A stretch of 32,094 bases of DNA from Candidatus Zixiibacteriota bacterium (GTDB lineage Bacteria > Zixibacteria > MSB-5A5 > GN15 > FEB-12): contig JAGGTI010000115.1 in NCBI GenBank assembly GCA_021163775.1, positions 1-32,094 on the forward strand, in the 5' to 3' direction. The stretch's first letter is position 1. Each line of letters begins with the position of its first letter. Below the pieces are notes generated by a model. The model ran no database searches. It was not told the DNA's origin and saw only the letters and a program-made list of their open reading frames with translations. Positions 16,956 to 25,778 of this stretch are shown here, piece after piece. Made by a program: the position numbers and the translations under genes.

Positions 16956-16975
16956 ATTCCCGACTACTCGGGAAT
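16956..16975. repeat. REP-like hairpin
   Basis: ATTCCCGA-CTAC-TCGGGAAT is a perfect 8-bp stem, followed by GACA. The layout (palindrome then TGACA) is the same as in the inverted pair at 19218-19330. Confidence 0.65.
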
Positions 16976-16986
16976 GACAAGAACAG

Positions 16987-17047: not shown

Positions 17048-17125
17048 GTGCTCGGCAGATGTCCACATCTGCCACTTGTCGGGTATCTCACTCAAATCGT
17101 CCACGTTCGAACCCGACCTACGATT
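17048..17125. repeat. About 80-bp repeat with CGGCAGATGT palindrome (family B, copy 1)
   Basis: It starts with a 26-nt unit (17048-17073) centred on GGCAGATGT-CC-ACATCTGCC and continues with TTGTCGGGTATCTCACTCAA. The reverse complement of about 19060-19145 carries the same two blocks and further similarity around GTTCGAACCCGACCT. A third copy of the 26-nt unit alone is at 25703-25728. Confidence 0.75.
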
Positions 17126-17142
17126 TTTCTGACATTCACAAT

Positions 17143-17344
17143 GTTGGAACCACTAAGGGCTTGTTGATAAACCCTATTCACAGTTGTGTCGGGTCCTTGT
17201 CCCGTCAAGACGGGATTGTGGCCTGACACGTAAGTGCATGTCAGACAATAGCGGCAGGTCTCACGTATTCGCCCAGGAGAATTCGAAGGACCTGCCGCAA
17301 CTACACAAGAGGACTTTTTCAACAAGCCCTTAAGGGGTTCCAAC
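17143..17344. mobile_element. MITE-like element with terminal inverted repeats
   Basis: About 202 bp bounded by imperfect terminal inverted repeats of about 28 nt. The left end is GTTGGAACCACTA then AGGGCTTGTTGA. The right end, read inward on the other strand, is GTTGGAACCCCTTA then AGGGCTTGTTGA. No transposase is encoded. The interior is a series of hairpins: CCCGTC-AA-GACGGG (17201-17214), CTGACA/TGTCAG (17223-17244) and GCGGCAGGTC/GACCTGCCGC (17251-17260 and 17289-17298). I do not see a clear target-site duplication. It sits 128 nt before the transglutaminase lipoprotein gene. A non-autonomous transposable element is the simplest reading; a large structured RNA is the alternative. Confidence 0.65.
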
Positions 17345-17472
17345 CTACTATGCTTTTGTTTTTTTGTTTTTCTTGTGTAAATTCCAACCATCACGAGACT
17401 TGCTGTGTGACCGCTGGGGAGCTACCTTGGGCCTATGTGAAAAATATAACCGAGCCTACTTTGGAGAATAAG

Positions 17473-19032
17473 ATGCTCAAAAACTATGTCTTGATCGCAA
17501 CCCTGTCTGCCCTGCTGATCGGCTGTGGCGTCGGCAAGGGAGACCTTGATCCCGTGGAAAAAGTTCTGGCCGAAGCCGAAGACAACCGAGGTGAACTACA
17601 ACAGGTTCTTGACCACTATGCCGCTGAAGGTGATTCACTGAAACTCGATGCCGCTCGATATCTGATCGGCAACATGCAGGGACATAGTTACGTCACCTAC
17701 TATCTGCACGACACCACCGATACCGAAATCCCGTTTAATGTTGATGACTACGAAGACTATGCGGCGCTAACTGCCGCAAACGATACGCTCGAAGACGAAC
17801 ACGGTCTGCTTGATTTCAGCCGCCACGACCCCATGTACGATATCCACACCATAACTGCTGAGTTTTTAATCGAAAATATAGATTACGCTTTCCGTGCCTG
17901 GCGCGAAAGGCCTTGGGCACGCGGACTGAACTACGAAGATTTCCGCGATTACGTCCTCCCCTACCGCGGTAGCAACGAACCACTCGAAAGCTGGCGACCG
18001 GCACTCTTTGATAAGTATGCCGATATTGCCTCACAACTTGACGACTCGACCGACCCGCTTGAGGCGACGGTGCTGATCAACCGGGATATCATGACCTGGT
18101 TCGGGTTTGATCCGCGGTATTACTATCATCCGACCGATCAGTCGTTTTCCGAAATGAAAGCTTCCGGCTTGGGGCGTTGCGAAGACATGACCAACATCAC
18201 AATTTACGCCATGCGAGCCAATGGAATTGGCGTCACCAGCGATTATACACCACACTGGGCCAACACCGGCAACAACCACGCCTGGAATGCGATCCTCGCA
18301 CCGAACGGTGAGGTCATCCCGTTCATGGGAGCCGAAGCCAACCCCGGCGAGTATCACCTGGCCAATAAACTGGCCAAAGCATACCGCAAGAATTTCGCCA
18401 TGCAACCCGAGAACCTGACCTTTCAAGAGAAGAAACAGGAGAAAGTCCCCCGCTGGTTGGGCGGTAAGACCTACCGCGATGTTACTTCCGACTATGTCGA
18501 AGTCTGTCAGGTAGAAGTAGCATTCGAGGAGGCTATCCCCGACTCGGTTGATATCGCCTATCTGTGCGTGTTCAACTCCGGCGAGTGGAAAGCGATTCAC
18601 TGGGGGCGGATCGTCGATGGCCACGCCCTCTTTACCGACATGGGCAAAGGAATCGCCTACCTGCCCGCGCTTTACCTCAATGAAAAGATCGTACCATTCG
18701 GCCCGCCATTTATCCTGCACGATGATTGCACACAGGAAAAACTCATCGTGTTGCCTGATGTCACCCAGACAATCACGATCGGCTCAACCACTCGCCGCCG
18801 TCTGGTAGCATCCACTGACGGTATCGCCAAGTCATTTCTGAATAACGGGCAGGAGTACGAACTTTTCTTCTGGGATGACGGTTGGCAATCACACGGAAAA
18901 GCGATCTCCGGTGACTCGCCGCTGACTTTCGAAGGTGTCCCGGCCGAAGGTCTTTACTGGCTGGTCGGTACCGATTCAGATCACGAAGAGCGCATCTTCA
19001 CAATTGAAGAGCGCGTTCAAGTCTGGTGGTAG
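17473..19032 (+). CDS. Transglutaminase-like domain lipoprotein
   Basis: A 519-aa exported lipoprotein with lipobox LLIGCG (Cys at about 17). The N-terminal part (DNRGELQQVLDHY, AARYLIGNMQGHSY) matches a helical region typical of Bacteroidetes transglutaminase lipoproteins. The transglutaminase core has the nucleophile Cys at about 236 (GLGRCEDM) and His at about 269 (NNHAWN). The usual third-position Asp is not obvious; the strand reads PFMGAEAN. A C-terminal beta region follows. The fold is a papain-like protease or acyltransferase fold; substrates are probably peptides or cell-wall material outside the cell, unknown here. The start is ATG at 17473, five bases after GGAGA. The same frame extends back to 17350, but that adds a non-signal segment before the signal peptide. 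Confidence 0.85.
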   Translation: MLKNYVLIATLSALLIGCGVGKGDLDPVEKVLAEAEDNRGELQQVLDHYAAEGDSLKLDAARYLIGNMQGHSYVTYYLHDTTDTEIPFNVDDYEDYAALTAANDTLEDEHGLLDFSRHDPMYDIHTITAEFLIENIDYAFRAWRERPWARGLNYEDFRDYVLPYRGSNEPLESWRPALFDKYADIASQLDDSTDPLEATVLINRDIMTWFGFDPRYYYHPTDQSFSEMKASGLGRCEDMTNITIYAMRANGIGVTSDYTPHWANTGNNHAWNAILAPNGEVIPFMGAEANPGEYHLANKLAKAYRKNFAMQPENLTFQEKKQEKVPRWLGGKTYRDVTSDYVEVCQVEVAFEEAIPDSVDIAYLCVFNSGEWKAIHWGRIVDGHALFTDMGKGIAYLPALYLNEKIVPFGPPFILHDDCTQEKLIVLPDVTQTITIGSTTRRRLVASTDGIAKSFLNNGQEYELFFWDDGWQSHGKAISGDSPLTFEGVPAEGLYWLVGTDSDHEERIFTIEERVQVWW

Positions 19033-19059: not shown

Positions 19060-19145
19060 GGTCGGCGTTCGAGCAACAACCATTTGAGCGAGATACCCGA
19101 CAATTTTCTTTTGACATCCGGCAGATGTGGACATCTACCGGGCAC
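19060..19145. repeat. About 80-bp repeat (family B, copy 2, inverted)
   Basis: The reverse complement of the 17048-17125 repeat. It contains the palindrome GGCAGATGT-GG-ACATCTACC (one arm changed by a C-to-T, giving a G-T pair) and the block ATTTGAGCGAGATACCCGAC (19082-19101). Confidence 0.75.
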
Positions 19146-19217
19146 AATAAAGTAGGTCATGCCTACTCTGGGCGTGACACAGAAAGCATCGGGCCTGACC
19201 TTTGATATGTCTTGCTT

Positions 19218-19330
19218 CGTCATCCTTGCGGAAGCAAGGAGCCAGTTGTCTCCTTACGATGGCCGTATTATGATTCATAGCTTACAGCTATAACGACCAC
19301 AACTGGATGCTCGCTTTTGCGAGCATGACA
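19218..19330. repeat. Inverted pair of REP sequences (BIME-like)
   Basis: Two 32-nt units face each other at 19218-19249 and 19299-19330. Each contains a hairpin then CCAGTTGT. The hairpin stems differ by paired changes: CCTTGC/GCAAGG on the left and ATGCTCGC/GCGAGCAT on the right. So the structure is conserved while the sequence varies. The layout equals bacterial interspersed mosaic elements described in enterobacteria. Confidence 0.75.
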
Positions 19331-25621: not shown

Positions 25622-25778
25622 TTAAGTAGGTTGGTGGCTGGGGAACGAGAACCCGTTGGTCGCAGACTGGTAGGATGGAAGCCCACGCGACTTCGACACA
25701 GTGTGCCCGGCAGATGTCCACATCTGCCGCACGATGGCCTTGTGACTGGTTGGTGTGAGGAAAAGCCAAGCCAGAAGG
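25622..25778. repeat. Intergenic stretch with family B and D repeat pieces
   Basis: Contains the 26-nt family B unit (25703-25728, GTGCCCGGCAGATGTC...) identical in its core to 17048-17073. Near 25629 there is a GGTGGCTGG block shared with the palindromic element at 4196-4267. No gene is seen. Confidence 0.65.

Follow-up and report, generated by a model that had tools for sequence, protein, structure and literature searches.

The window analyzed here, that is, the whole 32,094-nt stretch of DNA from a Candidatus Zixiibacteriota bacterium, carries a strongly structured intergenic stretch at 17143–17344, lying between an upstream gene that encodes Ig-like domains and a downstream gene with a transglutaminase-like domain (PF01841) and a likely ATG at 17473. 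Compared with shuffled sequences, the stretch folds exceptionally well both as DNA (z = −8.4, with 0 of 200 shuffles as good) and as RNA (z = −7.3). A preliminary description had read it as a 202-bp, non-autonomous, MITE-like transposable element without coding capacity and with 28-nt terminal inverted repeats (TIRs), or else as a structured RNA, and the inverted ends on which this reading was built, GTTGGAACC/GGTTCCAAC and TAAGGGCTTGTTGATAAA/TTTTTCAACAAGCCCTTA, were located at their reported positions. A 100-aa open reading frame (ORF) runs antisense at 17092–17394, spanning the element as well as both of its flanks. The lengths of the MITE copies vary between 172, 173, 174, 179 and 180 bp, which indicates that no reading frame is kept among them, and the claim that the element has no conserved coding capacity therefore holds.

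The 202-bp stretch was used as the query against the host genome (2.37 Mb in 130 contigs, 77% complete). It returned 13 near-complete copies, each spanning 160 bases or more, together with some ten shorter ones, several of them 94–100% identical, so that the family occupies more than 20 dispersed places. Related elements were found in 27 of the 146 other genomes searched, which belong to the same family, order and class, and the full-length ones among them are approximately 70–84% identical to the query. In an exact-pattern scan of named genomes, real copies appeared solely at two loci of DAOWIM01 ('bacterium CSMAG_2043'), while the other 17 matches were short chance or unrelated sequences. 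In one relative (G021), many contigs have a terminus roughly 100 bases into an element bearing these ends, suggesting that the repeat limits the assembly of that genome.

Alignment of the copies together with their flanks showed that similarity ends at GGGCTTGTTGA on the left and at TCAACAAGCCC on the right, and that the outer arms GTTGGAACC/GGTTCCAAC are absent from the other MITE copies. This defines the mobile unit as window positions 17157–17329, a 173-bp MITE on the plus strand (the choice of strand being arbitrary), and the 202-bp stretch as this unit plus parts of a separate target hairpin. Its TIRs are about 15 nt long (GGGCTTGTTGAWAAA) and comprise GGGCTTGTTGATAAA at 17157–17171 on the plus strand and GGGCTTGTTGAAAAA at 17315–17329 on the minus strand. 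Thus, the single 28-nt TIR resolves into two things, a TIR of about half that length and, outside it, the GTTGGAACC arms, which form the target hairpin's stem. The 'variable 4–5 nt' described between the two inverted segments does exist, as ACTAA on the left and TTAA plus GG on the right, but it contains a 4-bp target-site duplication (TSD), CTAA/TTAA. More generally, a compound inverted repeat in raw sequence may represent a mobile element together with its palindromic target, and caution is needed in reading such structures. Further elements of 77 to approximately 320 bp (L140–L159) have the same TIR and different interiors, indicating that several MITE subfamilies use these ends.

The filled site is arranged as GTTGGAACCA–CTAA–element–TTAA–GGGGTTCCAAC, with the left hairpin arm at 17143–17152, the left duplication at 17153–17156, the right duplication, one change away from CTAA, at 17330–17333, and the right arm at 17334–17344; both arms are given on the plus strand, and their stem of 9 pairs is the longest among the sites. 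The duplication length was evaluated on 63 elements from the host genome and its relatives that have both ends present. Flank identity at a length of exactly 4 bp was 65%, compared with 33% in re-paired flanks (z = 11.8), and at all other lengths from 1 to 12 no flank likeness was found, with z near 0. To evaluate the palindromic nature of the targets, the 36 insertions with a duplication matching at least 3 of 4 bases were used, and 13 of them lay between arms pairing over at least 5 bases, whereas 1.8 were expected and the maximum in 500 flank shuffles was 6. When palindromes were first tested with re-paired flanks as the control, the difference had been weak (6.73 vs 6.38, sd 0.15), because the sites share the same left and right bias; the shuffled-flank test is the informative one.

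When the flanks of the element are joined, they give GGAACCACTAAGGGGTTCC, which matches a hairpin repeat dispersed over the host genome. The pattern of this target hairpin, GGAACCNCNAAGGGGTTCC, has 21 exact matches there, compared with 0 for the reversed control pattern, and 65 matches on both strands if up to two mismatches are allowed (L214–L243). The target hairpin forms a dispersed repeat family of its own, with extended conserved flanks. GGAACCACTAAGGGGTTCC occurs exact and uninterrupted at C50:16314 and C63:3433, each time within the same outer flanks, ACAATGTC...CCTACTATACT, and these two loci are paralogous empty sites. An empty paralogue of the site of another copy (L006) lies inside the window at 19214–19265 (CATCCTTGCGGAAGCAAGGAG) and is 92% identical over 52 bp across the junction. 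The element thus combines small size, lack of coding capacity, TIRs, a TSD of fixed length and empty sites, and the picture of a single-copy sequence with neither homologous ends nor an empty site is the opposite of what was found. The proposed comparison of empty and filled sites succeeded among paralogues; an orthologous empty allele was not found via the transglutaminase neighbor, whose homologs in relatives have about 50–64% protein identity and which is missing from the only genome of the same genus. In a relative (L111), a 153-bp element is nested within another MITE, with TTAG as the TSD. A further palindrome of the window, GTCATTCCCGA...TCGGGAAT at 16956–16978, resembles target hairpins of MITEs and insertion sequences (ISs) in relatives (L143, L191).

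The preliminary description had also called for a transposase flanked by the same ends, and this was found as IS1182 elements in relatives but not in the 77%-complete host genome. The first transposase family tried, PF01609, gave no match in the host genome. PF13751 matched in 7 of 10 genomes searched, the host genome being negative. A 1413-bp element in a relative (L161) has GGGCTTGTTGAAAAA at both ends, a TSD of GTTC and a transposase broken by a stop, and a second one (L162) pairs the same end with an ORF that scores 390.6 bits against the NCBIfam IS1182 transposase model NF033551 (cut-off 270; E = 1.1e-116) and also matches PF05598 and PF13751. Relatives of this transposase were detected in 26 of 147 genomes searched. 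Complete elements are approximately 1.41–1.44 kb in length, have the MITE TIR and are flanked by the TSDs TTTA, CAAG and GTTC. By inspection, complete ISs also sit in palindromes, such as CCCACAG-CAAG-CTGTGGG (L190) and CCCACCA-TTTA-GGGTGGG (L188), so that insertion into palindromes, reported for some IS1182 members, is seen for the MITE copies and, on inspection, for the IS copies. The complete IS1182 element in L187 matches both asymmetric ends of the MITE: one of its ends agrees with the left end of the MITE at 21 of 22 bases, and its opposite end is 84% identical to the right end over 32 bases. Both matches have the correct polarity, which indicates that the two differing MITE ends correspond to the two differing IS1182 ends. 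The MITE and the IS share no more than their ends, and none of the ISs found would give the MITE interior by internal deletion.

Autonomous elements with these ends were thus found in relatives and not in the host genome, which is 77% complete and yielded neither a PF13751 match nor an IS1182 transposase with these ends; the one sequence in it that matches the partner transposase has 34% identity and lacks them. Across genomes, close partner transposases and the MITE did not co-occur beyond chance (4/17 vs 28/147). Both the missing partner and the lack of co-occurrence might stem from assemblies that are incomplete and break at repeats, or from loss of the IS, and the source IS copy has presumably been lost from the host genome or was not binned.

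Based on these findings, we consider it highly probable (about 93%) that the locus holds a 173-bp MITE moved in trans by an IS1182-family DDE transposase via its TIRs of about 15 nt into the 4-nt loop of an older dispersed hairpin, with duplication of the loop bases. In mechanistic terms, the transposase would act on the TIRs of an element that encodes none itself, the element would enter the loop of the pre-existing hairpin GTTGGAACCA-CTAA-GGGGTTCCAAC, and the loop bases would then be found duplicated on either side of it with the stem kept. This reading is directly supported by the shared ends, the copy number, the 4-bp duplication, the palindrome preference, the paralogous empty sites and the complete IS1182 elements of relatives, which agree with the MITE in their ends and in the kind of target; that the IS1182 transposase family did the moving is what the shared end sequences suggest. 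The part of the preliminary description that proposed a non-autonomous transposable element is therefore strongly supported, by the multiple copies, shared ends, 4-bp duplications, paralogous empty sites and autonomous partner family. The analysis documents a family of IS1182-type MITEs that, throughout an uncultured class, occupies the loops of other repeats, and its clear before-and-after sites make hairpin targeting by the IS1182 transposase family testable.

IS1182-related MITEs are already known, and the new family adds well-documented loop insertion with a 4-bp duplication. Table 4 of PMC3852290 lists two such MITEs of Methanosarcina acetivorans with ISMac2 as the partner, 160 and 169 bp in length and present in 14 and 7 copies, with inverted repeats of 25–26 bp and, in the first, 4-bp direct repeats. 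Going by that table, whose entries do not extend to interior hairpins or targets, they resemble the present element in size, in their IS1182 partner and, for the first one, in the 4-bp repeat, but their host is archaeal and their inverted repeats are longer than the approximately 15 nt found here. ISPse1 of Paracoccus, another IS1182-family member, has 16/16-bp inverted repeats and 4-bp direct repeats (PMC3281130), both like those of the MITE, whereas it is a full autonomous IS of 1653 bp from an alphaproteobacterium. The Chunjie MITE of Geobacter uraniireducens, an intergenic element with tens of copies of 178–235 bp and many fragments (reviewed in PMC10969869), is alike in being an intergenic bacterial MITE with many length-varied copies and fragments, a likeness that rests on these traits and not on the ends or the partner family.

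Palindromic targets of some IS1182 members are credited by PMC5678879 and PMC4923244 to a review by Siguier and colleagues. According to the same two papers, IS1272 of staphylococci, which belongs to the IS1182 family, uses hairpin targets with little sequence consensus and replaces the stem-loop without producing a duplication. The IS1182-family transposase and the hairpin targeting are alike in the two systems, but the insertions of the present family leave the stem in place and duplicate the 4-nt loop. Replacement of the IS1272 kind was accordingly rejected for the present family: stems are retained, 42 of 75 sites carry a duplication in which at least 3 of the 4 bases agree, and among copies without a direct TSD inverted duplications are not in excess (P = 0.485). 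It is the 4-bp duplications that distinguish loop insertion from stem-loop replacement.

The sole unusual feature of the element is its interior, where compensatory changes maintain the hairpins in different genera. Three perfect hairpins had been described there; hairpins are indeed present, but the strong ones are two and compound, with mismatches and inner loops. Hairpin a at 17186–17229 (plus strand) is formed by GTGTCGGGTC...GGCCTGACAC and encloses an inner CCCGTC/GACGGG stem-loop, and hairpin b at 17251–17298 (plus strand) is formed by GCGGCAGGTC...GACCTGCCGC around a variable inner stem-loop. Among 19 diverged copies, 93.4% of the cells of both hairpins were paired (94% for hairpin a), and changes on both sides were found at 7 of 20 pairs, namely 2 of 10 in hairpin a and 5 of 10 in hairpin b. 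Cells with such two-sided changes numbered 23, compared with 7.7 in shuffles (0 of 500 reached this number) and no more than 2 in slid controls. An alternative fold that joins hairpin a (left arm) to hairpin b (right arm) showed little covariation beyond shuffles and was rejected.

These patterns could reflect either selection for a hairpin, in DNA or in RNA, or non-selective, template-switching repair of quasi-palindromes. If selection were responsible, the double hairpin would be a structured module, a DNA cruciform or an RNA, for which the IS1182 ends serve as a vehicle, and the unit would be more than a passive remnant. The compensatory pattern and the order of the element parts, which is kept while inner loops are replaced, agree with such a module, but template switching perfects quasi-palindromes into the same pattern without selection, and many elements of different sizes have just the ends in common; we regard the module as unlikely. 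It is similarly doubtful that the double hairpin has been selected through many genera of a class to aid the element itself, for example as a replication cruciform that recruits the transposase or as a landing hairpin. With respect to RNA, the stems contain 8 G-U compared with 16 A-C combinations, and this lack of a G-U excess means that nothing indicates an RNA on the folded strand; all Rfam scores were far below the gathering cut-offs. The structured RNA offered by the preliminary description was dropped on both counts.

Much less probable still is the suggested effect on the transglutaminase lipoprotein gene downstream, whose transcription the element would supply or insulate. Lying upstream, with 143 bp between it and the likely ATG, and being strongly structured, the element would suit this role, but promoter-like sites occur at the chance level (one weak match, 0.9 expected), the scan contained 0 intrinsic terminators, copies are found in all gene orientations in the host genome, and homologous downstream genes occur in relatives where no MITE copy was detected. 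A regulatory role as promoter or insulator is thus not supported, and the interior hairpins probably have no effect on the neighboring gene.

That the element is instead a repeat of the REP/BIME type, mobilized by a RAYT (Y1) transposase, is very improbable, since the intergenic, high-copy chain of hairpins and the occurrence of Y1 transposases and true REP-like hairpins in the host genome are outweighed by the TIRs, the exact 4-bp duplications and the DDE-transposase partners with the same ends, which already contradict a system of single hairpins without TSD, and by the lack of the target hairpin at all five Y1 loci checked. A second dispersed hairpin, GGCAGATGTCCACATCTGCC, occurs in the window at 17054–17073, 19120–19139 and 25709–25728 and has 69 sites genome-wide at no more than one mismatch, compared with 0 for the reversed control. 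At one locus (L248) it lies on both sides of a Y1 (RAYT-like) transposase gene, and this hairpin and gene look like a REP/RAYT pair.
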